Below are positions 482 through 44,300 of a stretch of 64,000 bases of DNA, in pieces. Under the pieces are notes generated by a model. It worked only from the letters and a program-made list of their open reading frames with translations. It made no database searches and was not told where the DNA came from. Origin of the DNA: Lineus longissimus (lineage: Eukaryota; Nemertea; Pilidiophora; Heteronemertea; Lineidae). The stretch is from positions 13,764,001 through 13,828,000 of the forward strand of contig NC_088312.1 in the NCBI RefSeq assembly GCF_910592395.1, read 5' to 3'. How positions within the stretch are numbered: the stretch's first letter is position 1; each line of letters begins with the position of its first letter. Made by a program: the position numbers and the translations under genes.

Positions 482-942
482 GTTAATATCATTAATATCT
501 TCCCGGTGTTTAGTTCATTATGCATGAAAATGGCATGCTCCATGGTATTTGATATCCTTTTGCGTTCACTACGGTACCAATGTTTTTGGTTGACATAATT
601 ATGCCACTGTTCATTCCTCAATCCTGACCATAATTCAGGTAAAATCATTGTATGAAAATATTTACCGAAACATGAAGTTTATGCCATGAATGAGGATACT
701 CATTGTCATAGCCTCGTTTACAAGTACGAAGTATTTTCCCGCGAATATTCAAAACTGCTTGGCTCCTTGCCAGTTAAATAACATGTGACTATACACAAAA
801 TAGGAAACTTTGATGGAAATTGTAAATCATTTTTTTATCTATCAGGGGAAACAAGCTGATGATGATCAAATAAATCATTCATGAGAAATCGTTTTGTTGC
901 TGAAGCTTGCATGACGAAGTTAATGCTAAACCTTTTCTTGTG

Positions 943-1419
943 CTCTACTAGGGCAGAGACCTGTATTCATCCGCGACCGGAAGTGTGGCACAGTCACATA
1001 GAGCTTATCAAAATGTCAAGTTGTGGTAAATACATGGCTGGGATGGACCAAAGTGGAATTAATTCTCAATCTGTGGTTGATTCTAAATCTACAGAGTCAG
1101 GCCATCACAGAAACATGCTTTTTGATAATATATTTAAGAAAATGTGGTCTCACTGGTCAGTTTAGAACTTGTACTTTGACAGGGCCATATCAATGCACCA
1201 GTGACGTTTTGATGGATATGGTGTACGGAAATCTTTTTTTCTCAGGCAATCGGTATTGGAATTTTTTTAAACTTTATTATGCTATTGGCAAAGGGTTCTT
1301 CTTGACATGTATAAAATTTTGTGCAGATTGATTGGTCCAAGGTGTACTTTTTTTACCAAAACATATGCACAACAATGTACATGTAATGTACACAAGGTTT
1401 AATAGAGGACTCTGGCCTA
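943..1419 (+). repeat. 477-bp direct repeat, copy 1
   Basis: By eye this block is identical to 4771-5247, both starting CTCTACTAGGGCAGAG. The pair brackets the Mutator-like transposase and the His-Cys box exon in direct orientation. In this copy the ends form an imperfect inverted repeat (CTACTAGGGCAGAG at 945 and CTCTGGCCTAGTAG at 1410-1423), as in a MITE; the right-hand match is lost in copy 2. The left boundary also reads as a 3' splice site with a pyrimidine-rich tract, so a duplicated exon is an alternative. The ends are not TG...CA, which argues against LTRs. No target duplication was resolved. Confidence 0.75.
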
Positions 1420-1568
1420 GTAGTCAAAATGGTTGACCAAGTATGAAAAATTTGACACTTGCACGCACATTTTATCTTATTTTCTCTATTCTGCACGTCC
1501 TTTCCAGTCCTTTTTCTTGTAGTTGAACCAATATTTATGGCATTATTGTACATATTAACCCTTTTCAG

Positions 1569-1931
1569 CAGCAATCATGGATTCAGACCTTAAAAGTTAA
1601 AATAAACCGGAACAGCGAAGCTGATCTGAAGTCGAATTGTGTAAACTGTATATTATGGACTGGGTATAGTCGTCGTTATGGGGAGACACGGTTTAAACTA
1701 CCTTGGGACGGGTGCAGCAAAAAGCACAGGGCCCATAGGCTTGCTTATATTGCATATTATGGTGGCCCCTTGCCTTTTGGACTTGATGTCTCTCACAGAT
1801 GCCACAATGCGCTGTGTGTCAATGTTGACCACTTGAGTTTAGAAGCTAGGGGTATTAACAACCAGAGGAAGACTTGCCTGGCTGAAAAGAAATGCTTTGG
1901 GCACTTAGATAAAAAAGACTGCTTGTTTTGA
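1569..1931 (+). CDS. His-Cys box (I-PpoI-like) endonuclease exon
   Basis: A 120-codon open stretch without an internal Met runs from a 3' splice site (CCCTTTTCAG, ending at 1568) to a TGA at 1929-1931, so it is read as a terminal exon. The C-terminal half matches the zinc-binding loop of His-Me finger homing endonucleases with family spacing. The general-base His is H76 in the SHRCHN motif and the metal-binding Asn is N97. Zinc site 1 is C78, C83 and H88, probably with an upstream Cys near C24-C27. Zinc site 2 is C103, C109, H112 and C118. Proteins of this family nick double-stranded DNA at specific sites; here every expected catalytic and zinc residue can be seen. The exon is convergent with the transposase on the other strand, with 44 bp between the stop codons, and both lie between the 477-bp repeats. 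The upstream exon was not identified. Whether the protein serves the transposon is inference. Confidence 0.7.
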   Translation, partial: QQSWIQTLKVKINRNSEADLKSNCVNCILWTGYSRRYGETRFKLPWDGCSKKHRAHRLAYIAYYGGPLPFGLDVSHRCHNALCVNVDHLSLEARGINNQRKTCLAEKKCFGHLDKKDCLF

Positions 1932-1975
1932 GGTAAATAGTATAATAGTGGGTATAAAGTGAAGCTAGTGATATC

Positions 1976-4177
1976 TTAAATTGTTTCTGAGCTGGATGAA
2001 ATTGCTGTGTATTGTCGAAAGTGGTGGTTGTAATCTCTTGCTAGTCTCTTAGCTCTCTCCTTTAATCCACCCTCCTCCTCCCCCCCCTCTAGTTCTAGCC
2101 TGTCCTTATGGTAGTCAATGTCTTTAACTACCCCCCTTCTCTTTGCTTGATAGAATGCACGCGTTCGAATTGTCCTTACAACTCGTCGTCTAATCCTAGT
2201 TTTCAGCTCGCTTTCCCATTTCTTATAGTACCACTTCCTATTGTCCATTTCTTTCAGACAATTCATTGCTGCTGCTGAAACTCGGGCACCAAGTCTCTTG
2301 AGCTTCAGTGGAATGGACTTTCCCCGTGTATTGTTCATGGTGTGGATTGCTGCATGAACACGACTGCGATAGTTTTTAAGGTGAGTCACGTTTTTTGGCG
2401 CAATCAAATTCAATTGCCGATTGGCACTCTCACAGGCCTGTGTATTTGTCGCATGACGTATCTTTTTTAGACATGTTTTACTCAACTTCATCTCCAGTAT
2501 GCTTCTCACAAGAAGCTTGTCAGCATCACTCATGTTGAGGTCCTTGGCTGACAACTCCAAGTTGCTTAGTTTGCATGCACTCCACCAAGAACCTTGGCCA
2601 TCGCATACGGTTGTTTCGATTGAACACTGGCTGCAGTCACCGTCGAAACAAGCGATCAGATTGTCCACTATTGTGGCTAAGTTTTCACCAATTTGGTCAG
2701 TGTCCCCATGATACTTTTTAAACAGGGTATCGAAAATTGTGGATGCACGGATTGCAATATCACTGGAGAGACATTTCTTCGCCTCTGCTGCATCAGGTGC
2801 CTTCATACCAACAAACATTCCCTTTGAAAATTGGGCTCTCATGCCTTTACGAAATTGGGCTTGGCCCAAATGATATGTATCCGACATTCTTTCTACTTTT
2901 AAGGCCTTCCCAAGAAAGGTGCTGAAAGCATCCTCCATGCCAGCACTACATTTACCGTCACCGTCGGTTGTACAGCAATGAACAAGTAAGTGATTAGCTG
3001 CCAACTCTAACCCAACCATATTACCAATGTCATATTCCCTGAGAACTTGATAATCTGGAAGATTCGCCTTGCATCCATCATGTGCTTCATCTGTGCCACA
3101 CTTTGGTTGGAACCCTCTTCCTAAAAGCCATGCCCCCTTATAACACAGTTTGTCAAGTATACCTACTGCAATGATTTTGTGGGACGGTGTCTCATTTTCA
3201 CGAACTAATCCCACCGCTTGAGTCGCGGCTTGACCGGGCCTACTTCGTCTGGCAATAGTAAAACTATTATAGACTGTGTCCATTTGAACACTGACACCTG
3301 ATTGATCACATCTCATTCTTTTCACCTCTTTTAGATAATTCTGTTGTCTCTTCAAGTCATCCTTGTTGAGTTCAACAGTTTCCATCCCAACCCTATTGAC
3401 ATTGTTTTGTAAACTTGATTTTGACATTGGTGGAACATTTGCGATTGACAGTAATGTCTTAGTCTTTGATTGACTACCAATTTCCTGAGAAGCCAGTGCC
3501 AATGCAACATTTATTTCAGCCTGCTTTGCACCACGACCTTGCTTCTCTATTTCATTATAAAGTTTAAAATAATGCTTCCCACAAGCAAAATTACAATTTG
3601 CACACCTCAGTGCCCAGCGAGCACTAGCACCCTTCTTGATGTCATGTTCTATCTCAAACTTTGGAATGTCACAATGACCAATAAAGTTGAAATGGAGCTC
3701 TGAACACCCATTCAGCATTTCAAGAATTTTAAATTTGCTGGCAACAATATTAGTATCTTCAGTTGGTATAACATACGTATTGTCCTTTGCAGCATCCTGT
3801 CCCCGGCGAAGTATCTTCAGTGGGCTGACTGTGTTCTCGACCGTCGGTGCATAGATTATGCCATCCGAACGCTCACGCACAACATTGTCATAATCATCAT
3901 TACTGAAACGCGACCAGCTACCATTGGTTTTCTCTGGAGGCATTGTCCTGCTGTAGGGCGAGTGGTAAGAGTGACCAACTTGAAATCCACGGCTTGGCTT
4001 TTTGCTTAGCTTAGGCATCTTGAGTTGAAGTTTACTCTGTGGAGTCCACATGTAAAGTGACCCCCAGAGCATACCTAGTTGACACTTGAGGATATTGGGA
4101 TGGTTCATCATCATTGTGCTTCTCTGAATTGATGAGCTGCTAAGATAAACAAATACCTTAGCCATAACAGAAGTCAT
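1976..4177 (-). CDS. Mutator-like element (MULE) DDE transposase
   Basis: An uninterrupted 733-codon frame. Translation more likely starts at M54 (codon at 4016-4018), where a basic MPKLSKKPSRG segment begins; the first 53 residues look like read-through. A Cys/His cluster (C192, C195, C199, H202) forms a probable zinc motif before the catalytic core. The putative DDE triad is D300 in MDTVYN, D405 in TTDGDGK and E583 in ACESAN, with a PGQAATQA segment downstream of the first Asp. This layout is that of the Mutator-like transposase domain of metazoan elements. The C terminus is Lys/Arg-rich. The enzyme would cut and reinsert DNA at element ends in the nucleus. Apart from the doubtful N-terminal extension the frame is intact, so the copy may be young. 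Terminal inverted repeats were not found, so the element boundaries are unknown. The MULE assignment is confident; the subfamily is not. Confidence 0.8.
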   Translation of the reverse strand: MTSVMAKVFVYLSSSSIQRSTMMMNHPNILKCQLGMLWGSLYMWTPQSKLQLKMPKLSKKPSRGFQVGHSYHSPYSRTMPPEKTNGSWSRFSNDDYDNVVRERSDGIIYAPTVENTVSPLKILRRGQDAAKDNTYVIPTEDTNIVASKFKILEMLNGCSELHFNFIGHCDIPKFEIEHDIKKGASARWALRCANCNFACGKHYFKLYNEIEKQGRGAKQAEINVALALASQEIGSQSKTKTLLSIANVPPMSKSSLQNNVNRVGMETVELNKDDLKRQQNYLKEVKRMRCDQSGVSVQMDTVYNSFTIARRSRPGQAATQAVGLVRENETPSHKIIAVGILDKLCYKGAWLLGRGFQPKCGTDEAHDGCKANLPDYQVLREYDIGNMVGLELAANHLLVHCCTTDGDGKCSAGMEDAFSTFLGKALKVERMSDTYHLGQAQFRKGMRAQFSKGMFVGMKAPDAAEAKKCLSSDIAIRASTIFDTLFKKYHGDTDQIGENLATIVDNLIACFDGDCSQCSIETTVCDGQGSWWSACKLSNLELSAKDLNMSDADKLLVRSILEMKLSKTCLKKIRHATNTQACESANRQLNLIAPKNVTHLKNYRSRVHAAIHTMNNTRGKSIPLKLKRLGARVSAAAMNCLKEMDNRKWYYKKWESELKTRIRRRVVRTIRTRAFYQAKRRGVVKDIDYHKDRLELEGGEEEGGLKERAKRLARDYNHHFRQYTAISSSSETI

Positions 4178-4770
4178 ATCCTAATGAAAAACAAACATGT
4201 GATACACATGTGTCCTTTGATCTTTCAAGTTGAGAATGTGAGTAAATGAGGTTTCTCGGGGTCAAAGGGGTTCACTTTGAATTGGCCACACAAGCTCTTT
4301 GCTGGTCATATGAAGTTTAAACTTGATAGGTAGGCAAGTGTGAATCTGAAGTAATCTGGAATTGTGACTTTTTGAAAATTCAGACTCAGTGTTGTAGAGA
4401 TTCTACAATTTCTATATTCCGTTGTCATGGTAACTGCCCAAACTTAGAAACCTGGCCCTGGGACATCCAGCAATGACCATATGAACTCAAAAACTCTTAT
4501 TTCTAATAATGTATATATCCTTTATTTCAAACTAACAGTGCTTAGAGGGATTTAATAATTTTTAACAGAAATATTACATGTTGGGTATTTAAGAATTTGC
4601 CACGCCCACATCACTTCAACATAGAATTTGATGCCGGACATAGCAAGAAGATGAACTCGAATAAAAATTTTACTATTCAATATAATTCAAAAATTCCTTT
4701 TGCACAGTAATGTGAACATCTAGGGGAATCTGAAAACAGCAGAACATTTGACCTGGGGCCATTACTGGCT
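4178..4770. other. Region upstream of the transposase; no gene seen
   Basis: This stretch should hold the 5' untranslated region and promoter of the minus-strand transposase. It is AT-rich and contains a short palindromic stretch (GTGATACACATGTG near 4199). No other coding frame is convincing. Confidence 0.3.
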
Positions 4771-5247
4771 CTCTACTAGGGCAGAGACCTGTATTCATCC
4801 GCGACCGGAAGTGTGGCACAGTCACATAGAGCTTATCAAAATGTCAAGTTGTGGTAAATACATGGCTGGGATGGACCAAAGTGGAATTAATTCTCAATCT
4901 GTGGTTGATTCTAAATCTACAGAGTCAGGCCATCACAGAAACATGCTTTTTGATAATATATTTAAGAAAATGTGGTCTCACTGGTCAGTTTAGAACTTGT
5001 ACTTTGACAGGGCCATATCAATGCACCAGTGACGTTTTGATGGATATGGTGTACGGAAATCTTTTTTTCTCAGGCAATCGGTATTGGAATTTTTTTAAAC
5101 TTTATTATGCTATTGGCAAAGGGTTCTTCTTGACATGTATAAAATTTTGTGCAGATTGATTGGTCCAAGGTGTACTTTTTTTACCAAAACATATGCACAA
5201 CAATGTACATGTAATGTACACAAGGTTTAATAGAGGACTCTGGCCTA
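4771..5247 (+). repeat. 477-bp direct repeat, copy 2
   Basis: Same length and, by eye, the same sequence as 943-1419; the 102-codon frames inside the two copies are identical. Such identity implies recent duplication, gene conversion, or that the enclosed unit moved together with its flanks. The right edge departs from copy 1 after GGCCTA. Confidence 0.75.
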
Positions 5248-6352
5248 CTGCGCCACCGTAGTTTTCTATTTAGACCAGCGATGACGTCATTTCTGGTGAT
5301 TCCCTACGTTGTCCAATGAGCGCTTTTTAAAATGTGCCATTTGGTATTGTACAGTATGCAATGTATTTTTTCAGCGCTGCCAGTTGCCGAAGAGAATGCC
5401 GTAGCTCCCTCAATTTCCAATCAATTTTTATGGGAGTGACATTATTTTATTGCTTAGAATGTCTACTTTTTACTCATGAAAGAATCGTAGAACTAAAACA
5501 TAATAGGCGAACAGAATCATGCCGATTCACTGCACATACTGTGGGAATTCTCCACTTCAAAATACATCGGCGATGTCATCGCGAACAGAGCATGCACTTC
5601 CGATATCGTTTTCACAGAAATGTCGCCAAATATTCAAGAACTAATTTCTGAATTGAGTCCCTAAAGACCTTATGACTACCACTGAAACGAACTAGTGATA
5701 ATATCGCCTACCAGACTACTTTTTAAGCAGAAAATTGGGTACTTGAGTGTCATTGAGCTCCAAGATTATTGCACATAGCGTAAACAACATGCCGCCATTT
5801 TGTCTCCGCTTCGGTATTTCGTACGCCGCTTATAATGCACCTTCTCAATTAAAACCAACATAATAAGGCCTTACATCGTTGATTGAATAGGAACACCTCA
5901 CAAAACACAATAAAGTGGGGGTACAATCGATTACGAAGCTGAAGTGAACAGTGATTTATTCCTGGAGCTACTGCTTTTGTTGTGTAGCTGCCATGATGTT
6001 TTGTGAACTGGCAAATAGGAGACTTCATTGATAGCTGACGTCATCGGGCGGGAATTTGAATCGGCAGAAATAATTAAAAGGCAGGTAGCGCCCTCTCCTG
6101 TTAAAATTTTGAACTTTTTCTCAATAAAATAGATTTTTAAGAATTTTATCTTAATATTAGAGCATATTTCGACTAATTCTGCTGCTCCTAGGCCGATATA
6201 GGCCAGTTTCCTTCATGCACTCTCGCTCGCAGGAAGTAGGTCGAATGGCGACAAATTTTGTTTTGAAAGTAATGTTTGACCAGAAGTATCCAGAAATGCA
6301 AAATTGAAGTCTCTAGGTCTTACGGTTACAAAATGTGCACCATGGGTTTAAC
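5248..6352. other. Intergenic; no gene seen
   Basis: The sequence is AT-rich with scattered TGACGTCA-type palindromes (near 5282 and 6038). The longest frame (5334-5651, plus) has irregular composition and no recognisable motif, so it is not called. Confidence 0.4.
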
Positions 6353-7005: not shown

Positions 7006-7306
7006 AAACGTAAATGGCGAGATTTGTTGACCGTCCCAAAATGGCCGACGGCGAATTCTCCGGTCGCTAGCGCAGTCCATAAACAAGCATCAATTTTACC
7101 AACTTTGGGTGCAAGCTTGGTCATAAAAGTTACAGAACTGTTAGAAATACATCTAAACAACATATATATACAGTTAAAAGTGCATAAAAATCCCGTTTCA
7201 ACCTCCGGGCGCTACCTTTTTTCTCCGCCACACGCCGGACCCTACCGGTCGTTATTTAGTGCGACCGCCACCAGAGTGTTTATCACGATCTTTCGCCGTT
7301 TTAATT
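7006..7306 (+). repeat. Repeat R1, first copy
   Basis: About 301 bp nearly identical to 8328-8629, with a few substitutions and one T-run length change. It starts AAACGTAAATGGCGAGATTT and ends at TTTTAATT. The open frames inside are shared only because the DNA is shared; no protein domain is seen. Confidence 0.8.
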
Positions 7307-7317
7307 TAAGGAATTAA

Positions 7318-7472
7318 TACCGAGCTGGCGGTCATTGGTTGTATAATCAAGACCGCTCGGGTAGACCGAAAATGCAGTCCAAAACCCGAGGCGCTTCGCC
7401 GAGGGTTTTGGACGTAATTTGAGGTCCACCCGAGCGGTCTTGATTATACAACCAATGACCGACAGCGAGGTA
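7318..7472. mobile_element. 155-bp foldback MITE flanked by TTAA
   Basis: The element starts TACCGAGC and ends GCGAGGTA. Its arms pair over nearly the whole length (GGTCATTGGTTGTATAATCA on the left, the complement on the right) around a central CCAAAACCC/GGGTTTTGG stem. TTAA flanks it at 7314-7317 and 7473-7476, the target duplication of piggyBac and Kolobok elements. A diverged single arm lies at about 7850-7900. Confidence 0.65.
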
Positions 7473-7849
7473 TTAATTTCTATTCTAAAAGGTTTCAAAA
7501 TTAAACAAATTAAATACGATTTGAAAGGTATGTTCCGTTTTCGTCAAAGAATGATCCAGCCTGGTGTCCGGAACTCCGCCATATTGTTGCTTGTGAAGAT
7601 GACGTCACGCAGCAAGGGAATTCCCAGTCTGCTAGCTCGATTTCTACCATTTCCTCGTCTTTGACCTCTTCTGAATCCTGACTGACGACCTCGAAAGAGT
7701 CCTCGGGTATCCTCCCTACTTCACAAATCCCAATATATCGGGGAATACTTCAAAATCTCGTGTTCTTGACATTGTTTTGTGGGGCTGAGTCGTTGCTTCT
7801 TGGTGAAAATAATTCGTCTGCTAAAATTCAGAATTTTATACCTACCCAG

Positions 7850-7900
7850 GCGGTCATTGGTTACGATACCAAGACCGCTCCGATCAAAACGAGGCGTAAT
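7850..7900. repeat. Diverged arm of the TTAA foldback family
   Basis: GGCGGTCATTGGTT, a spacer and AAGACCGCTC repeat the left-arm motifs of the element at 7318-7472 with substitutions. No partner arm was seen nearby. Confidence 0.4.
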
Positions 7901-7950
7901 GTATTTTGTATTAGAAACAATGATATACTGTGACTAAGGCCTTTTAGAAT

Positions 7951-8327
7951 GCGCGTTTAAGGTAGATTAATCAATTATTACATGCATGCATTATATATCA
8001 CCGAAATGATAATTGCGTAGGCTATTTGAAACTAAGTTCAGATGTCATTTTCGATCTTTGAATTGAATTTAGGCGAGTGATTTTTGACACCCGGTCGACA
8101 TATCAGGACTTGCAAAATTCACGCGAGATCGCTTGCATCATCGGCACGTTTGAAAACCGAATTTCACAAATTCCACAAATATTTATCACATACCATATGT
8201 ATCACCACAAAGGTAACTCTCTAGACTATTTGAAACCAAGTTCAGATACTTATTTTCACAAAAATTCGAAGCTATGCAAGCGATTTTTCAGTGGTAGAGA
8301 TCGACGGAAACAAATTTTTCGCTCTAA
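7951..8327 (+). repeat. Repeat R2, first copy
   Basis: About 377 bp nearly identical to 8630-9008, from GCGCGTTT to CGCTCTAAAA. Order along the DNA is R1, TTAA element and spacer, R2, R1', R2', so the last three blocks form a tandem duplication of a roughly 680-bp unit. Confidence 0.8.
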
Positions 8328-8629
8328 AAACGTAAATGGCGAGATTTGTTGACCGTCCCAAAATGGCTGACGGCGAATTCTCCGGTCGCTAGCGCAGTCC
8401 ATAAACAAGCATCAATTTTACCAACTTTGGGTGCAAGCTTGGTCATAAAAGTTACAGAACTGTTAGAAATACATCTAAACAACATATATATACAGTTAAA
8501 AGTGCATAAAAATCCCGTTTCAACCTCCGGGCGCTACCTTTTTTTCTCCGCCACACGCCGGGCCCTACCGGTCGTTATTTAGTGCGACCGCCACCAGAGT
8601 GTTTATCACGATCTTTCGCCGTTTTAATT
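8328..8629 (+). repeat. Repeat R1, second copy
   Basis: Second copy of the block at 7006-7306, lying directly between the two R2 copies. It lacks the TTAA-flanked foldback, so it probably shows the unit before that insertion. Confidence 0.8.
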
Positions 8630-9008
8630 GCGCGTTTTAGGTAGATTAATCAATTATTACATGCATGCATTATATATCACCGAAATGATAATTGCGTAGG
8701 CTATTTGAAACTAAGTTCAGATGTCATTTTCGATCTTTTGAATTGAATTTAGGCGAGTGATTTTTGACACCCGGTCGACATATCAGGACTTGCAAAATTC
8801 ACCCGAGATCGCTTGCATCATCGGCACGTTTGAAAACCGAATTTCACAAATTCCACAAATATTTATCACATACCATATGTATCACCACAAAGGTAACTCT
8901 CTAGACTATTTGAAACCAAGTTCAGATACTTATTTTCACAAAAATTCGAAGCTATGCAAGCGATTTTTCAGTGGTAGAGATCGACGGAAACAAATTTTTC
9001 GCTCTAAA
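8630..9008 (+). repeat. Repeat R2, second copy
   Basis: Second copy of 7951-8327, with a few substitutions. The sequence diverges after CGCTCTAAAA. Confidence 0.8.
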
Positions 9009-9267
9009 ATGACATGAGACGAGCACCAACTTCCGCTGATTTGTGCACAAAATTTCCGGAATATTATAAAAAACTATTGATAAATCTGAATTATATAGAC
9101 TCTTTTCAGTACCTAAACAAATTTCAGGTACATGGTCATGTTGATTAAAAGAGTATCAACCGATTGAACATGAGACAGTTCACTCACCTTCATTGAAGCA
9201 GCGACTACCGCCATTTTTAATGGTGGCATCTCTTCTATCGATCGGCCAATCAGCGGCACTGCTTGCA

Positions 9268-10306
9268 AATGAAATGGCCAGGGCCATTGTGCTCACCTCA
9301 TGTGGAGGAAAGATGGATAAAGAGCATGGTATTGTGTCATGTAGTGTTAGGTTTGATGTAGGTCCAAGCAATTACAATTTCCCCAAAATGGCCAATTTAC
9401 ATAACATTCGACCTCTGTGACCTTGAAAAGTAGGTCAAATCAAAGAAGACCCGGGTGACACATTGAATGGTTGTTAGAATTAGATGTACCTATGATATAA
9501 AATTGGTGCCAATCGGGCAAGTCATTACTAGGAATAATGGCATTTTGAAGAATTAAGGATTTGGCCCCCTCCCTGGAGGCCAAACGGCAAATCAGATCGC
9601 ACCAAACTTCGGTACCTGAGATCACCTGACCAAGGGGTACATGTGTACTTAATTTGTGATCAATAGTCATTGCAGTTAAGAAACGTGCCATAGTTACGGC
9701 CTGACGGCGAATTTACGCCATTTGACCTCTGTGACCTTGACAAGAAGGTCAAATTAAAAACCTGTGTGACATATACTGTATTGTGGTTAGATGTACCCAT
9801 GATATCAAATTGGTGGCAATCGGGCAAGAAGTTAAGGAATAATCACATTTTTAAGGTTTTTGGATTTTGCCCCCTGGTGGTCAAGTGGTGAATCATATTG
9901 GACCAAACTTCGGTCCCTGAGATCACCTGACTAAGGGGTAAATGTGTACCAAATTTGGTATCAATAGTCATTGCAGTTTAGAAACGTGCCATCGTTACAT
10001 CCTAACGGCCAATTTACACCATTTGACCTCTGTGACCTTGAAAAGGAGGTCAAATCAAAAACCCGGAGGATATATGATGCACCTTTGCTAGAAGTACCTA
10101 CCATATTTTTTTCAAAATTTCCCGACTACTATTAAGGGAGATATTGCATATTTTCACTTTTAACATTTGGCCCCCTGGTGGCCAAACCATGAAACGAATC
10201 GGACCAAACTTGGTTTCCAAGGTGTCATTACATAAGGGTACATGTGTACCAAGTTTCAACTCAATAGCTCTGACAGTTATGAAACGTGCCCTGCTAACGG
10301 ACGACG

Positions 10307-10356
<50 letters not shown>

Positions 10357-10413
10357 ACGACGGACGCCACGGTATGGGATAAGCTCACCTCTGCTAAGAG
10401 GTGAGCTAAAAAG
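9268..10413 (+). mobile_element. Helentron-like element A, three internal units plus (GAC)n
   Basis: The left end starts AATGAAATGGCC and carries GTGCTCACCT. Three diverged internal units begin near 9409, 9723 and 10024 (spacing 314 and 301 bp). A (GAC)n run (about 10299-10366) follows, then a hairpin at 10382-10407 (AGCTCACCTCT, GCTA, AGAGGTGAGCT) and an A-run. Each unit opens with TGACCT-type half-sites and contains a TTTGGCCCCCT segment. The frames of 118 and 86 codons across the microsatellite are poly-Arg artefacts. No transposase gene is present, so the element is non-autonomous. The Helentron assignment rests on architecture only. Confidence 0.6.
10299..10366. repeat. (GAC)n microsatellite
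   Basis: About 20 GAC/ACG triplets, slightly interrupted at the end, just upstream of the terminal hairpin of element A. Confidence 0.85.
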
Positions 10414-10739
10414 TTAAGCCACCGCCAAATTTGAAATCGCCAAAATTCAGGCAATGTGCCTGCAGCGCCAACTGGCGGTGAAAACTATATTAATTCCATT
10501 AAAAGTAAAAAATGAAAAAATATTTAAAAATATTCAGCCACATTTGAAAACAATATTTGCTCTGTGGACCGAGGTAAAAAGGGAAAGAAATCTAAACGCG
10601 AAATGACCTCATTCTCTTAATACAGGTCGGATCGCGCCGATTTTTCGTTTTTTGAGTTCACCTTGGGCAACTCCTAATTTAGCACCGTCAACGAAGTGGC
10701 TAGGCCTTCCCGGTCAGAAATGTCCAATTTTGTCCACAG

Positions 10740-10828
10740 ATGGGTCCCTAGATGGATGGATTGCAGGACGGACACCATTTGAACAGCTATACTACTAGCT
10801 CCGCTGACTTTGTCAGCTGAGCTAAAAA
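10740..10828 (+). mobile_element. Helentron-like hairpin terminus
   Basis: GATGGATGG, GGACGGACACC and a hairpin at 10797-10823 followed by AAAAAGG repeat the terminal order seen at 6353-6464. The upstream part (10414-10739) holds no gene and no clear left end. Confidence 0.5.
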
Positions 10829-11004
10829 GGTACAAACTACCAAACGACCATCCAATCCAAGATTCTTGGTGGACTCTGAATTAAAATACAGTAGCGCCAC
10901 AAAAACAGTGGGATGTCCTGGTGGTTTCTTTCCTTTTCTCCTCTTTTTACTGTGATTATCCCATTCTTTTAGGCCCTCTACCCCTGTATCCGACTCCTCA
11001 AGGG

Positions 11005-11400
11005 CCTAGTGCACTGACGTTAGGCCTAACGTTAATCCCTGGACCAGAATGTTAAAGGCTGCTGGTTTTTCACCCGTATGGCACTCTATGATCAGATTGT
11101 TTTAACTTGTTTTGCACCAAACTTCATTTTTAAAATTCACTGCTCGCAACAATTTGTATTATTCTGGATTTTCTGACAAATTATCATTTAAAAAGTTTCT
11201 TTCAATAATTCCACTAAATTTCAATGCATTACGCCGACATGGCGTCATACGTTGCGCATGACGTAAGGTATTAGCGCAGTGCATTGAATTAACTAGAATT
11301 ACTGAAAGAAATCTTTTAACTGATAATTTGTCTGAAAATCCAGAATTTGTAGCGAGCAATAAATGATGAAGTTTGGTGCAAAACAAGTTGAAACAATCTG
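11005..11400. mobile_element. Foldback element with ~150-bp arms
   Basis: Arms at about 11092-11245 and 11265-11400 are inverted copies of each other (CACCAAACTTCAT on the left, ATGAAGTTTGGTG on the right). The left tail (11005-11160) is also the inverted copy of 27063-27225, inside the insert that splits the Gypsy element. The shared end reads AAGGGCCTAGTGCACTGACG. No protein is encoded. Confidence 0.6.
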
Positions 11401-11603
11401 GGACACTGACTTTCTGGATGGATAATATAGCAACCTTGACCCTAGGAATTATTGCTCACAGTCCTGGATCGAGGTCGTCACAAATAATCCCTAGCGCAGG
11501 TGGCTCTCCGCCATCTTGAAACCGCTTCACAAATGGTCACTAAACGTTGTTTTGTAAATCGGTCGGATGCATACGCGCACAAAGTAGATCCGTAAATACC
11601 GTT

Positions 11604-12480
11604 AATGAAATGGTCCAGGGACCATGTGCTCACCTGTAAAGGCCATAAGAGAGGAGCAGTATCAAGCAAGCATATTTTGTCTTTCGACATTTTGCCCCCT
11701 ATTGGCCGAGCCGTGAAATGTATGACATCACGATTTGGTGTCTAAGTAGGGGCCACCAAGAGGTACATTCATACTAAGTTTAGTTTGGGATCTCTGGCTA
11801 AAGCGGTTACAAAACGTGCCACCGTTGACTAACTGCAGTGCCGCCAACACACTTTGACCTCTGTGACCTTGAAAATAAGGTCAAATCAAAAGCCCGGAGT
11901 ACATGTGATGTCCCATTGGTACCTACCATATTTTTTTCAAATTTTTCGGACCAGGAATAAGCGAGCAATCGCATATTTTCACTTTCGACATTTGGCCCCC
12001 TATTGACCAAACCGTGAAATGTATGAAGCCACAATTTGGTGTATGAGTAGGGGCCAACCAGAGGTACATTTGTGCAAAGTTTGGGATCTCTGGCTGAAGC
12101 GGTTACAAAACGTGCCACCATTGACTTACTATGGTGCTGCCGACACACTATGACCTTTGTGACCCTGAAAATTAGGTCAAATCAAAAACCCGTAGGATAT
12201 GTGATGTCCCATTGGTAGGAGTACCTACCATATTTTTTTCAAATTTTTCGGACCAGGAATAAGGGAGAAAATGCATATTTTCATGTTTTACCTTTGGCCC
12301 CCTGGTGGCCAAACCATGAATCATATGAGTAGCGGTCACCTAGGGACACATGTGTACCAAGTTTGAGTTCAATAGCTTTAGCGGTTACCAAACGTGCCAC
12401 TATTGTTTAACGACGACGGACGGACGGACGACGACGCCGCGTCATGGTAAAGGCTCACCACAGGTGAGCCAAAAAGCTAG
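11604..12480 (+). mobile_element. Helentron-like element B
   Basis: The left end (AATGAAATGGTCCAGGGACC, then GTGCTCACCT) matches the left end of element A. Internal units begin near 11855 and 12151. A short GACG run follows, then a hairpin at 12452-12470 (GGCTCACC, ACA, GGTGAGCC), AAAAAG and CTAG at 12477-12480, next to a T. A hairpin a few bases before CTRR at an A/T site is the classic Helitron 3' end. No coding capacity. Confidence 0.6.
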
Positions 12481-24377: not shown

Positions 24378-24555
24378 CAAATCAAGGACATGAAAAGAAA
24401 GGCAGAGTATCGGTGAATCAATAGAAGTGAGAAACTCGATTTCCCCTATTGACATTTATGCGTGCCGCCTGATTTTAGTCGAGGCAAGATCAGTGCCCGA
24501 GAACATCGTTGTACATTCGTAGTGCATTTGAATATTCACCACAGCAGAATCCAAA

Positions 24556-26313
24556 ATGGCCGTTCAGGGAATACTTCCCCCTAAGTTCACCCCCGCCTCT
24601 CACGACATGGGAGTGCTCGCCACTTCATGGAGAGAATACAGGGACGAACTAGATCTATATTTCCTTGCTAGTGGGCAAGGAACAGCAGCACAGAAACAGA
24701 AGGTGTCCCTCTTGCTGTATCAAATGGGGAAGCAGTACATGAAAGTGTTTCAAAATGAACTGGTGTTCGAAGCAGACGCTGACAAGGACAAGTACGACAA
24801 GGTCTGCTCAGCGTTTGATAAGTACTTTGAACCAAAGAAACTGGTTAAAAGCCACATTACCAAGTTTCAAAAGCGGATGCAGGCCAGCAATGAGACAATT
24901 TCAGATTATATCACTGACCTGCGTCGCCTAGCGAAATTGTGTGAATTCGGTGACAAAGAGGACCGAATGATGTCTGTTCAGATTTCTAACGGTGTCAAAG
25001 ACGAAGTACTATTAAGGAAGAAGCTGTGGGACGAGGATCTGACGTTGCAGCAAACGATTGAAAAGTGCCAGACATTCGAACTACGTGCTGAAAGTGCAGG
25101 GTTGTTTAAAAAGCATAACAACACTGCTGGTGATAAGGAAGTGAACGCAGCCTATCGTTGGCGTGGTGGTAGTCGATCTAGATCACGGGGTCGCGGGTAC
25201 ACAAACTATCCCCGTGGAGGTGCCACTGCGAGTCAACATCATGGACGTGGACGCTCAACCCCAAGAGTAGCTCAGCAACGCGGGTATGGTCGTGGACGTC
25301 GCAGCCACAGCCAAAATCAGTATCATGGGTCATGCCAAAAGTGTGGTCGTCAACATGCCCCTAGACAGTGTCCAGCCTATGATCAACAGTGTAGACATTG
25401 CCACATGTATGGTCATTTCGAGAGAAAGTGCTTGAAAAAGAACGTGTGTTTCATCGATGGTGAATGTGACTATGATGAAGAACAGTCATGGTCATATGAT
25501 TATGAGCCCACTGAGGAGATGGACTCCCTCCACATATACTCTATCAAGACTAGATCAACTACTAGAGACAGTGCTGGTGATACTTGGACTGTACTGCTGC
25601 ATACTCCCTATGAAAATGGACGTGGTGCCATTAGAATGAAAATAGATACACAGGCTCATTGCAACACCATGTCCAAAACCTCTTTTGACAGAATGCAACA
25701 GCATGGTCACCTGCAGCTCAAGTCCACAGCATCTACCATCACTGCCTTTGGTAACACTACTGTAGTGCCTGTTGGCAAAACAACATTTGATGTCATCATG
25801 AAGGGTGAAACACACTCAATTGAGTGTGAGGTTGTACCTGGCAATGTGCCAAATCTTCTTGGTGCAAAGGATAGTGAAAGGTTAGGCCTAGTGAAGCGTG
25901 TATTCCATGTCAGAGACCAGCCATTGTTTGATGACAAATTCCTGAAGCGCATTTCAAATGTTGAGAAAGTACCAGAACCTATCTTGAAGGTACTTAGGGA
26001 CTTTCCAGACAGGTTTCCTGATGAAAGGGTTGGCAAGCTACCTGGTGAGTTTCATCTGTCCATTGATCCAGAGTACAAAGATGGTCCAGTGTCATATGGT
26101 AGTAGACCTATACCAGCAGCTCTGAGAGATATGACCAAGAAACAAATAGATTTCCTAGAGAGTAATGACATTATTTCCAAGGTACCACCCGGTGTCCCAA
26201 CACCCTGGTGTAGTCAACTGCATGTAGTGCATAAGAAGGATGGCAAGTCAGTACGCGTGTGTATAGATCCAAAGTTCTTGAATAAGGCTTTGCTCAGAGA
26301 GACCCATCCTATT
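24556..26313 (+). pseudogene. Gypsy Gag-protease-RT, 5' part of the polyprotein
   Basis: One frame of 586 recognisable codons. Gag occupies about residues 1-295, with an Arg/Gly-rich basic stretch (about 200-250) and two zinc knuckles (C260-C263-H267-C272 and C279-C282-H287-C292) that would bind RNA. The protease region is about 340-450; its active-site triad reads D364-T365-Q366, where the family normally has D-T/S-G, so catalysis is doubtful. The start of the reverse transcriptase follows (VPTPWCSQLHVVHKKDG near 547-563). Genuine sequence stops at about I586 (HPI, codon 26311-26313), where the foldback insert begins; the next nine codons and the stop belong to the insert. Gag and Pol share one frame, so no frameshift signal is needed. 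Confidence 0.88.
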
Positions 26314-27225
26314 AGGGTTACAGGAAAATTCGTCCCCGGATAATTCGTCCCCGGAAAATTCGTCCCCGCAAATTCGTCCCCGGAAAATTCGTCCCCGAGG
26401 ATAATTCGTCCCCGAGGATAATTCGTCCCCGGAAAATTTGTCCCCGAGGATAATTCGTCCCTGGAAAGTTCGTCCCCGAGGATAATTCGTCCCCAGAATA
26501 TTTAACAAAGTTGAAAGTTTCTGACTTTACTTTCTAGGACTCTTAAGTCTTGTCGAATGGACTGTAGTAATAACTAATACTTTCGATTTTTCTCATTCAG
26601 TGTAACATCCCTCTTTACTACCATACTAGCCAGTTACCTACCCCACTATTTTTATAGTAGGTGGAAGTAGGCAGGCGAAATATTTTATTGAGAATTTAGA
26701 GCTTTTCTTTCATTCTGACCAGTAAAAATACTTATTTGAAAAAAAAAATTATTTCGCCTGCCTACCTCTACCTACTATGAAAAGAGTGGAGTAGGTAACT
26801 AGCTAGTAGGGTAGTAAAGAGAGATATAATGAATGAGAAAAGTCGAAAGTAGTAAGTAGTAGTTATTACTAGAAACTAATGTCAGAAACTTTCAACTTTT
26901 GTTTAATTTTCCGAGGACGAATTATCTTCGAGGACGAATTTCCCAGGGATGAATTATCCTAGTGGACATATTTTCCGGGGATGAAATTTTCCTCGGGGAC
27001 GAATTTTCCAGGGACGAATTATCCTCGGGGACGAATTCTCCAGGGACGAATTTTCCAGGGACAAATAATACAAATTGTTGCGAGCAATGAATTTTAAAAA
27101 TGAAGTTTGGTGCAAAACAAGTTAAAACAATCTGATCATAGAGTGCCATACGGGTGAAAAACCAGCAGCCTTTAACATTCTGGTCCAGGGATTAACGTTA
27201 GGCCTAACGTCAGTGCACTAGGCCC
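26314..27225. mobile_element. 0.9-kb foldback insert with tandem-repeat arms
   Basis: Both arms consist of tandem copies of a roughly 16-bp unit (ATTCGTCCCCGAGGATA on the left to 26495, the complement from about 26908 to 27062). The middle is a long palindrome (CTACTATAAAAA-type arms, GGCAGGCGAAAT and its complement). The right tail (27063-27225) is the inverted copy of 11005-11160. It splits the reverse transcriptase between HPI and the first catalytic Asp box, and roughly 15-20 codons normally found there appear to be missing, which suggests a small deletion of target DNA. Confidence 0.75.
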
Positions 27226-29685
27226 TTTTCAGTACTTGATGCTAATCAAGGTTTCTTCCAGCTACAGTTGGACTATGAGAGTCAACTGCTTACTTGCTTC
27301 TCTACCCCTTGGGGGCGCTACATGTACAAACGTCTTCCTATGGGTGTCAAGTCTGCTCCAGAGATATACCAGCGGGCTATAGAAGAAATGTTCGCTGGGA
27401 TGGAAAACTTCGCCAATATCTTCGATGATATTTTGTTGCACACAGGTGACATTGAGCACCATTGTAAAGTACTGAGGAAAACACTAGAGACAGCACGTGA
27501 AAACGACTTGACGTTCAGGTTGAGTAAGTGCATGTTCGCGCAGCCAGAGGTAGATTACACTGGTCATGTTTTGACTGATGAAGGTGTGACTGTGTCGCCA
27601 GAGAAGGTTCGAGCCATTGTTGAACTTCCTGAGCCTACTTGTAAAGAAGAAGTGCGTACATTGTTAGGAATGGCCACATACTTGTCCAAGTATATTCCTA
27701 ACTTCTCTGATGTGACAAGTGACTTGAGAGAGGTTGTCAAAAAGAGACAAGATGGCAAAGGGTCTGAAGAGCCATTTCACTTTGATGAGCCACAGCGACA
27801 AGCTTTTAAGAAGCTCAAAGCGGCTTTGATACAAGCCCCGGTCATGAGTTACTACTCCAAGACTGAGCCGATAGTGGTTTCTTGCGATGCCTCGTTGGGG
27901 GGCCTCGGTGCGGTCTTGATGCAACATGACCACCCTATAGCATATGCATCTAAAACCCTGACTCAGACTGAACGAGCATATGCACAGATTGAAAAAGAGC
28001 TTCTGGCCATAGTGTTTGCTTGTAGGAAATTTCACCACCTACTGTATGGCAGAAATGACATCACAGTAGAGACAGACCATTTGCCTCTTGTCCACATCAT
28101 TGAGAAACCCTTGGGACAAGTTCCCTTGAGATTACAGAAGATGTTGTTGAAATTGCAACCATACAGTTTCAAACTGATAGGAAAGTCAGGGAAAGATATT
28201 CCTGTTGCTGATTGTCTGAGCCGAGCTCCATTGAAAGATTGTCACTACAGAGGCCTAGTTGATGACATGCATGACTACCAAGTCTGTGCTATGGAGATTC
28301 CTACTGTACATGCTTTCTCTGATTCCAAACTGAAGTTGTTGAAGACAAATACTGAGAATGATGCTGAGTTGCAGAAGTTGCGAAACCAGGTTGTCAAAGG
28401 TTGGCCTGATGACAGAGCCAAGGTAGAAAATGTTCTGAAGCCATACTGGGACTATAGGGCAGAGATCACTGTGTATGATGGTATCCTTTTCAAAGGAGAG
28501 CGAGTCATTGTACCCAAGCAGATGCATAAGAACATGGTAGAGTTGATACATAGTTCGCATCAAGGGATTGTCAAATCAAAACAGCTGGCTAGAGACGTTC
28601 TGTTTTGGGTTGGAATGAACAAGCAGATTGAAGAAGCTGTAAGCAAATGTCCATTGTGCCAAGCCAGTAGAAGTCAACAGCAGAAAGAGCCTATGATGAG
28701 CACTCCTGTGCCAACTCTACCATGGCAGTCTGTTTCATCAGACTTGTTTGTACTAGATGATGATTTCTATCTTGTGACTGTAGATCACTATTCTGGGTAT
28801 TTTGAAGTGGATGAACTGAAACCTGATCATAGTGCACCTGTTGTCATATCCAAACTGAAAAGAGTCTTTGCCACCCATGGCATCCCCAGGACTTTGTATT
28901 CTGATCATGGCTCGGAGTACACTAGTCGTGATATGAAAGATTTCAATACCCAGTGGGGGTTTGAAATCAAGGCATTCAGTGCTAAGAATCCACAGGCAAA
29001 TGGCCTAGCAGAAAAGTCAGTTCAGATTGCTAAAAACATGCTGAAGAAGTGTAGGCAAGATGGCACAGATTTTCAGTTGGCTTTGTTGGACTATAGGAAC
29101 ACCCCTAGAGACAATGTCTTGGGTTCCCCTGTACAAAGGTGTATGGGACGAAGGACACAGACTAGATTGCCTACAAATCCGTCACTGCTGAAGCCTAAAT
29201 TGTTGTCCCCAAAGCAAGTGACTGGCAGGTTGCAAGAATGTAAAGCCAGAAACAAGGTACACTATGACAAGCATGTGAAACCACTTCCAAACTTGACTAG
29301 AAATAATACTGTGAGGTACAGAACTGGTAAAACCTGGACACCAGCCAAATTTGTGTCTGAGGCTGATGGTCCAAGGTCATACAAGTTGGTCACACCCTCT
29401 GGCAAGACCATAGTTAGAAACAGGAGACACATTCTGAGAACGAGAGAATCTGGAATCTATGAGCCCATGAGGCGCCAGCTGTTGATGAATGAGGAAACTG
29501 AGCTTGCTACTCAGCCCAGGCCACCAGAAACTCCTGCTATTGCAGCTCCAAGGCCTGTTGCTTCTGGTCCTCCAGGTTCAGCTCCAGTCAGGTCAGTTCC
29601 TACTCCTGCTTCTAAACCTCCAGAACAGTTGAGAACAGGAAGAGTCTCAAGTGCTCCAAACCACCTGAAAGACTATGTCAAGTAA
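27226..29685 (+). pseudogene. Gypsy RT-RNase H-integrase, 3' part of the polyprotein
   Basis: The frame resumes at FSVLDANQGF, whose Asp (27238-27240) is the first catalytic residue of reverse transcriptase. The second box is IFDDILL, a variant of YxDD. RNase H follows (SCDASLGGLGAVL, IEKELLAIVFAC, VETDHLPL). Integrase has its HHCC zinc finger (HSSHQGIVK to CPLC) and a DDE core (D in VSSDLF, D in YSDHGSEY, E in GLAEKSVQ). A Pro-rich tail precedes the TAA at 29683-29685. There is no internal stop. The half lacks an initiation context because of the insert upstream. No envelope gene is present. Confidence 0.9.
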
Positions 29686-41326: not shown

Positions 41327-44300
41327 GTAGATTGTTTTTGGTTGACAAATGCCTTCACCTCGTCTGAGCCATCAATATTCAATTAGGCTTTATACATGGA
41401 AAAATATTGCTGCTAGACTAGTCTTACATTAGTGCAATTAACTGATAATTTCATGTTCTGGACAAATGGTTTATGCCTACAAATCCAACCCTATCACTGC
41501 TATACCTCGTTAAAATTTCTCACCAATCTTTAAAATCAAACCAGAAAAATTAGTCTTTTCCACCCTCTTATGTAAGAAATTCCATGGAAGAAATTGCATC
41601 TTTTCTGGCGTAATCTGCATTTGGTCTTAATTTCAAAATTGCTTGTTTTTCCAGAGAAACTAAAGGACTTTCCTGAGGAATTGCTACCAAGTAATCATGA
41701 AGTAGAAATCGATGCACCTTTCGATTTTGAAGTGTTCCAGCAAGGTTTGTGATTTGTCTTTTAAGGTCTTTTTATTCATCAGCTAGTTGGCTCTATTCCA
41801 AGACACAAATCAAGTTGTCTATTTTATAAGGAGTAAGTTTCCGATTTGACCTACCATACTTTTTACGGCTGCAGAGGTCAAACGACGTTAAAGGCTTGTA
41901 CCCACGGGCGCGATTTATCGCCTACAAAACGTCGCTGCGATATTCCGCCGCGACAAGTCGTTGCGCGCCGAATTTCGTAACCTGTTCCGACTGAAGCGTA
42001 TAATGGAGCGTACTCATGTCAGGTTACGACATAATCTCTTGCTAATCGACTTCAAGGACTTGCGGAGTTCATTTTGGACACGTTGCACGCGTCATCTTTT
42101 TTGTCAGGATCCTTGTATTCCTCCAATCCTTTGTTATATATCCTAGGGAACTTCTCAATCTCCAGGATCAACCGTTCCAAAAAATCGGGTTCAGACATGT
42201 CGAGTTGGTGATGACGGACCCAAAATGATGACCAAGTGAACAGTTGAGGACTATTTGTGGACACAAGCCCGCAAATCATTACGTAATTCTGTCTGTCAAT
42301 AACCCAAAGGTAGTTACTTGAGTCAAAATGCCCATTTCCTTACAAGAAATGGCCATTTTGTTAGTTCATACTTACCTATGGAACACTTTTGCATGTTACT
42401 CCATTTGGGCTCAAACACAAGAGTATCCCTTTAATTTTCTAAAGGGAGAACTGAGTTAACAGCTCGGCCGCCAGGCGGCGCCCTGACCGATCCCGCGAGA
42501 TCGCGCCGATCTCATGCCGCCATATTTAGTCTTTACTCTTGAGCGTTAATAAAGAGTATGTCCCGTTTGTGGGGACGGCGGGAGGGCCGTGTTCCATAGG
42601 TAAGTATGAACTAACAAAATGGCCATTTCTTGTAAGGAAATGGGCATTTTGTGTCATTCAAACTTACCTATGGAACACTTTTGCATCGAATCCCAGCAAC
42701 CTATTGGAGGTGGGAAACGAGGACTTACCTAAGGCTGAGCTGTTGTTCCATCCAGGAGGCACCACCGGCATATTAGCTAAGGAGGACCGCCAGGGGAAAG
42801 AAATGGGGAGAACCGGAGGACCGGTATTTTGATCTCGGTATTACAATCATATTATAGAGAGTAATAGACCCATTCTCCGGAAAGCGCTAGAATTGCGTAA
42901 TAAAACCATCTTCTTTCCGGCAACAGAGCTTAGAGCAAGTAAGGCATGTTGAAGGGTGTAGAATGAATTATTGCTAAACAACAATAAGAAATTGCGTCCT
43001 TTCTAGTCTACTAGGGGTTGCCTGGATGTTGAAGATAGGGCATATCAAAAATGGCGCAAGATGCGCGTTTGACTCTTCAATCGGGCTTCCCCCCCCTTTT
43101 TTGATCTAGCCAGGATCAAACAACATGCCCCGCAGACACAATCGGGCCGATTGTGTGCATGCCATCTACGAGGGAAGAAACGTCTCGTAGGTAGAAACGA
43201 GAGAATGTGGAGTGATTACTCCAACATGCAGCGGAAACGACTTCTTGAAGAGCAACTCCTCCGTAATTAGCCCAGGAGGTGGCTAGTGCTCTAACTTCGT
43301 GCGCTGAGATGTTAGCTAGCGCACGAAGATCAGAGGAAGTCTTCAAGGTGTTGTAGGAAAGACGAATAGTCTCCACAATCCACCTTGAAATAGTGGCGGC
43401 CGCTATCTCTCGTTTATTTCCCTCCTTATAGGACAAAAACAAACGCTCTCTCCCCTGGCGGATACCGGGAGGTTTTGTCCTATTTATGTAGAACTTTAGG
43501 GCCCTGACGGGACATAAAGTTCTGTCAGGAAGATCATAAGAGATCGTTCCTGACAGAGAGGGAATAGTAACCGGGGGCCGAGAGGCGGCCGGTCCCTGGT
43601 TCTTCGCCAGAAATCCTGGTATAAAAGCCAGGATAACCTCCCCTCCCTCTCTAAAAGCCAGCTTCTTAAAAGAAAGTGCATGGAGCTCTGATCTCCGTTG
43701 GGCGGTAGCCAAGGCTACTAGAAAGACCGTTTTGAGTGTCAGATATTTCATGGATGAAATAGACATGGGTTCAAAAGGATGCCTCATGAGCACCTTAAGG
43801 ACAACAGAAAGGTCCCATTTAGGGGTGTTGTGAACCGGTCTAGGACGCTCTAATAACATTCCTCTGAAAAGAGGGGTTATTTGGTCCTCCCAACGAAGAT
43901 CCCAGGTGCTTAAAACACGGAGGGTAGAAGCGATGGCGGACTTGTACCCTTTTATAGCCGTGACAGATAGTTGTCTTTCCGTGAATAATTCAATAAGGAA
44001 ATCAACTAATCTGTATATAGAGGGAGAGATCGGATTAACTCCGTTCTCCCTGCACCAGGAAGTGAAGGTAGACCACTTTCCTTGATACACATCAAGGGTA
44101 GACCCCCTTTGAGGTGCGGACATGCGCTTGACAGCGATGTCCGAAAAGCCTCTCTGGTGGAGATGCAACTGGATAAGTTCCAGGCGTGAAACTTGAAAAA
44201 TCCAGGGTTCTGGTGGTAGCATCTCCCCAGGGGGTGCCACAGGAGGTGCTTCCAAGTAGGAAGACTCCTGGGGTGATCTATCAGGAGCTCCAGCAAGGCT

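Follow-up and report, generated by a model that had tools for sequence, protein, structure and literature searches.

Within the Kolobok group of DNA transposons, the KolobokP lineage has been described from 228 families distributed over seven animal phyla (Kojima and Bao, 2022, Mobile DNA 13:24, PMC9587614). Literature searches on the lineage from 2022 onwards yielded this report and a single later paper citing it. As set out in the available text of that report, its members carry long direct repeats (LTDRs) of about 450 or about 660 bp, each with its own short terminal inverted repeats (TIRs) of 11-18 bp, perfect or imperfect, together with RR...YY termini and a target site duplication (TSD) of 3-5 bp. 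The KolobokP transposase displays a C/DxxH motif, a zinc finger before the last E and a second finger of the CCHC type, the latter being confined to KolobokP and a few related lineages, and is accompanied downstream, on the complementary strand, by a His-Cys box nuclease (PMC9587614). The Kol0/KolX, KolobokD, KolobokE and KolobokH lineages resemble KolobokP in the DDE transposase, in the RR...YY termini and, in almost all cases, in a zinc finger between the second D and the E, but encode different accessory proteins (KolX, DEDDh, lambda-type exonuclease and RecQ), and the LTDRs are presented in the same text as setting KolobokP apart from every other Kolobok family (PMC9587614). Mutator-like elements, which belong to a related DDE superfamily, have the C/DxxH motif in common with KolobokP according to that source (PMC9587614), as well as the name of a Pfam model.

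The window analysed here, a whole stretch of DNA of 64 kb, contains at 950-5246 one copy of what is very probably a complete and apparently intact KolobokP DNA transposon. The combination of a transposase and a homing-type nuclease between long identical repeats has been known in KolobokP since 2022, and the present copy is a good specimen and not a new kind of element. An earlier note on this DNA had proposed a transposon bearing a homing-type nuclease, which is borne out by matches to PF05551 and HNH_3 and by a DDE transposase, both lying between identical LTDRs. The note had also regarded this pairing as unusual; the pairing is real, but it was already in print, the nuclease being a standard KolobokP gene in the published account (PMC9587614). 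The features of the element, in positions of the window, are listed below.

950..5246, minus strand (transposase sense): whole element, very probably KolobokP, LTDR-INT-LTDR, 4297 bp; placed by a scan for TIRs, RR/YY termini and TSD, with the architecture as in PMC9587614
947..949: putative target site duplication, left, ACT; weak alone, as ACT also precedes LTDR copy 2
950..1418: LTDR copy 1, 469 bp, identical to copy 2; starts with AGGGCAGAG and ends with CTCTGGCCT
950..967, plus strand: left short terminal inverted repeat, paired with the right one at 15 of 18 positions
1419..4777: internal region (INT), 3359 bp; first bases AGTAGTC, last bases CTCTACT
1429..1440, plus strand: candidate first coding exon of the nuclease, MVDQ, donor CAA/GTATGA (split after CAA), phase 0; predicted from the sequence
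1569..1931, plus strand: main exon of the His-Cys box (His-Me finger) nuclease, 120 codons and stop, acceptor TTTTCAG
1976..4018, minus strand: DDE transposase from its likely start methionine (residue 55 of the stop-to-stop ORF); the ORF is open to 4180
4778..5246: LTDR copy 2, 469 bp
5229..5246, minus strand: right short terminal inverted repeat; also present at 1401-1418 in LTDR copy 1
5247..5249: putative target site duplication, right, ACT

The direct repeats at 943-1419 and 4771-5247 are identical at 477 of 477 positions (100%), as the earlier note had stated. The limits that it had assigned to the element, 943 and 5247, reflect this exact identity, but the biological ends are better set at 950 and 5246, so that the identity overruns them by 7 bp on the left and 1 bp on the right. 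This placement was obtained by scoring start and end positions near the repeat borders for inverted ends, RR/YY dinucleotides and a flanking duplication, which yielded AG...CT termini (RR...YY), ACT on both outer sides and ends paired at 11 of 14 positions. An LTDR start at 943 was set aside, since it conflicts with the RR rule and the scan showed no duplication flanking it. In a control, none of 2000 random placements in the window (0/2000) did as well on 11/14 paired ends, RR/YY and a 3-bp duplication taken jointly. The same 11/14 is reached by a second placement, 955/5241, but both of its ends fall within the repeats, to which its duplication, GGC, also belongs. Because of this tie, the control supports the inverted RR/YY ends and not ACT by itself.

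Perfect repeat identity, and the seven bases that are common upstream of the inferred ends, could also be produced by an assembly artefact or by a segmental tandem duplication with a unit of 3828 bp, resembling terminal repeats. A blind duplication, however, would not make inverted RR/YY ends at the repeat borders, which no random placement equalled, and the probability of such an origin is close to negligible. An LTR retrotransposon was rejected, the two main ORFs of INT encoding a DDE transposase and a nuclease and neither of them matching a reverse transcriptase family at E<=1. Under the KolobokP assignment, the open state of both frames and the identity of the repeats suggest that the copy is probably of recent origin or has undergone recent homogenisation. 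No further copy, solo LTDR or multimer was detected in the 64-kb window by BLASTN of 901-5300 (E<=1e-3).

Folded as single-stranded DNA, the LTDR gave a z-score of -2.71, with none of 100 shuffles as good, its inverted ends being paired and much internal pairing being present. A search of the LTDR for perfect semi-palindromes with 7-bp arms and a spacer of 0-6, as candidate cleavage sites of the nuclease, returned one, TGTACATgtaATGTACA at 1376-1392, which is not significant, at least one being found in 96 of 500 shuffles.

On the minus strand, the ORF at 1976-4180 comprises 734 codons from stop to stop and matches PF20700, a family named 'Mutator' in Pfam (E 9.5e-48). The window protein was aligned with all six relatives found among 7630 candidates (n = 7), and the aligned N-termini indicate that methionine 55 (4018), and not the first methionine of the ORF, is the likely start of the transposase. 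The DDE triad, which had been reported as complete, is present as D301, D406 and E584. D406, D408, D434/H437 (the DxxH motif), C511/C516/C519 and E584 are invariant in 7/7 sequences, and D301 is kept in 6/7, with Y in the remaining one (P0005). The CCHC finger, C346/C361/H367/C370, follows the first D and is likewise invariant in all seven. In the window protein, the Kolobok zinc finger before the last E is formed by C511/C516/C519/C526, of which C526 is not invariant in the seven-protein alignment. In an AlphaFold2 model of low confidence (pLDDT 51.8, and below 50 for residues 575-605 around E584), D301 falls within a strand, D406 directly behind one and E584 within a helix, an arrangement that would fit an RNase H fold. 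A Foldseek search of the PDB with this weak model returned 532 structures at E<=10, none of them at E<=0.001, the top ones including retroviral integrases (RNase H fold) mixed with ribosomal proteins. In scans of viral contigs, two pattern matches with the transposase and ten with the transposase alignment were not confirmed, nor were 14 pattern matches obtained with the alignment in genome contigs.

The name of the Pfam family agrees with the Mutator-like character that the earlier note had ascribed to the element, and capture of a homing-endonuclease gene by a Mutator-like element (MULE) would account for the PF20700 match. The target duplication of a MULE measures about 8-11 bp. At this locus no exact duplication of 6-11 bp was found for starts at 935-959 and ends at 5235-5259, the best 9-bp comparison agreeing at 7/9 positions with an end, 5240, located inside the repeat. 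No inverted repeat of at least 20 nt (seed 12) joins the ends, which are 18-bp imperfect inverted repeats, and the transposase contains, besides DxxH, two Kolobok-type zinc fingers, including the one between the second D and the E. With neither a long inverted repeat at the ends nor an exact 6-11 bp target duplication, and with Kolobok-type dinucleotides, a short flanking duplication, DxxH and two zinc fingers instead, the Mutator-like assignment had to be given up. The same pairing and order of genes are, moreover, published for most KolobokP families (PMC9587614), and the capture of a nuclease gene by a MULE is considered extremely unlikely. A literature search found no paper on a Mutator-like transposase with a homing endonuclease in a transposon. 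The 'Mutator' label of PF20700, these data suggest, covers Kolobok-type transposases.

The plus-strand frame at 1527-1931 matches PF05551 (zf-His_Me_endon, E 3.2e-9) and PF13392 (HNH_3, E 1.6e-8), both above the curated cut-offs. Comparison with PHROG (E<=0.1) returned nine families, eight annotated as HNH endonuclease and one as endonuclease, with E-values from 2.8e-15 for the best to 0.052 for the weakest. The catalytic and zinc-binding residues listed in the earlier note, H76, N97, C78/C83/H88 and C103/C109/H112/C118, are all in place when counted from 1569. In the nuclease group, residues S97, H98, H110, E114 and N119 of I-PpoI are described as conserved (PMC9587614), and they correspond to S75, H76, H88, E92 and N97 of the window nuclease, all five at a constant offset of 22. 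The window nuclease has the active-site and zinc-binding residues of the His-Cys box in common with I-PpoI and its relatives among the homing endonucleases of group I introns; the gene of I-PpoI resides in a group I intron, whereas that of the window nuclease lies in a DNA transposon. A search of a protein database with the nuclease found no homologue, and a search of the PDB by sequence retrieved no His-Me nuclease, its sole hit being a fatty acid synthase chain (E 0.24 and 0.15), regarded as fortuitous. A fold model from the single sequence had a mean pLDDT of 36, and three pattern matches in a scan of viral contigs were not confirmed.

The main exon of the nuclease begins 150 bp inside INT and contains no in-frame ATG. 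Twenty-eight phase-0 first exons with a junction to 1569 were enumerated; the best donor score is common to three of them, among which only the one starting at 1429 has both A at -3 and G at +4. The candidate first exon is therefore the segment at 1429-1440, followed by a putative intron at 1441-1568, which would place the predicted start of the nuclease 10 bp inside INT. The stop codon of the nuclease occupies the bases up to 1931 and that of the transposase the bases from 1976 on, in agreement with the earlier description of convergent genes 44 bp apart.

Taken feature by feature, the locus presents an LTDR of 469 bp, in the class of about 450 bp, TIRs paired at 15/18 positions, AG...CT termini and a 3-bp ACT duplication that is weak alone, together with a DDE transposase, in which DxxH and both zinc fingers, one of them of the CCHC type, are present, and an I-PpoI-like nuclease gene convergent with it. 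The order of the genes and their placement on opposite strands agree with the published KolobokP unit, and the length of 4297 bp falls within the range of 4022-4748 bp given for autonomous oyster families (PMC9587614). By comparison with this published architecture, as far as it is set out in the available text (PMC9587614), the genes and the repeats are one unit, and the reading of transposase, nuclease and repeats as chance neighbours was rejected. No tested defining feature differs from KolobokP; what sets the copy apart is that seven bases, and not three, are common upstream of both LTDRs.

LTDRs have inverted ends of their own, solo LTDRs are reported to be frequent (PMC9587614) and LTDR copy 2 by itself has ACT on both sides; two independent solo repeats, that is, copies of a short nonautonomous element, might accordingly have come to surround unrelated genes, or the nuclease exon might belong to an unrelated host transcript. 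The 477 bp are, however, 100% identical, and gene content, order and orientation are those of the published KolobokP unit, in which the INT of KolobokP-1_MeMe is likewise bounded by one short word, TATA (PMC9587614). As for a host transcript, the main exon of the nuclease lies 150 bp within INT and only 44 bp from the transposase stop. Either version of this explanation appears very unlikely next to a single KolobokP unit.

The seven identical bases, CTCTACT, precede both LTDRs, at 943-949 and at 4771-4777, and extend 4 bp beyond the 3-bp duplication. In the KolobokP interpretation, host DNA is expected at the left CTCTACT and the end of INT at the right one, and a simple model of transposition offers no explanation for the four extra base pairs. 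One consequence of the sharing is that ACT stands at either border of LTDR 2 taken by itself, a pattern that a solo insertion would likewise display. The probability of such sharing by chance is about 4^-7 if all seven bases are unrelated, and about 1 in 256 given the three bases of the duplication. The sharing could be due to chance, could reflect a target preference or could be left over from repair that used short homology. In KolobokP-1_MeMe, INT begins and finishes with the same short word, TATA (PMC9587614), and a duplication-like ACT at the end of INT is therefore not foreign to the lineage as described there. It is a very improbable idea that CTCTACT records the formation of this copy, a break made by the nuclease having been mended via short homology and an LTDR-INT unit having been added in place, and not by plain transposition.

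By analogy with the KolobokP family, the transposase would bind the short inverted ends and move the whole element or a single LTDR. Following the proposal of Kojima and Bao (PMC9587614), the nuclease might cut a semi-palindromic site in the LTDR or the joined ends of a circular form, and unequal exchange during repair from a sister copy would then lead to additional or restored LTDR-INT units. The available text of that report gives no bench test of the KolobokP nuclease (PMC9587614).

Several other repetitive features occur in the window. An exact 34-bp repeat, TAACAAGAGGCCCAAGGGCCTGGCGCTCAGCTGA, is found at 69-102 and 448-481 and contains the inverted repeat AGGCCC-AA-GGGCCT. Nested perfect or near-perfect duplications of 217, 273, 121 and 90 nt (96-100% identical) occupy 7006-9009, where an 85-nt inverted repeat with 86% complementarity and 3 nt between its arms is located at 7309-7481, and a family of related repeats with the common sequence GACCTCTGTGACCTTGA, spaced in part by about 300 bp, extends over 9401-12000. 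Gypsy-like pieces are present on the plus strand at 24532-29685 in two ORFs, with reverse transcriptase, RNase H and integrase above the cut-off and gag below it. On the minus strand, a large retroelement at 43116-48416 includes an RVT_1 match in a 771-aa ORF (E 2e-23) and overlapping or adjacent long ORFs of 997 and 768 codons for which Pfam gave nothing at E<=0.001; by eye only, the C-terminal portion of the longer of these two resembles a tyrosine recombinase, and the element is possibly of the DIRS/Ngaro type. A Harbinger-like transposase is encoded on the plus strand at 50252-51450, with DDE_Tnp_4 matched in the ORF at 50252-50917 (E 2.6e-8) and the next ORF, at 50890-51450, in another frame. 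No match came from NCBIfam, from Rfam (gathering threshold) or from ARAGORN.

In KolobokP, a homing endonuclease has been joined by nature to a DNA transposon, in an architecture that is LTR-like. With open frames, identical LTDRs, defined ends and a candidate first exon for the nuclease, the copy described here provides a convenient specimen for the question of where the nuclease cuts. If the improbable origin of CTCTACT in copy formation were true and matched junctions were found in sibling copies, CTCTACT would be a sequence trace of the nuclease-driven copying that is put forward only as a model in the published account of the lineage (PMC9587614).
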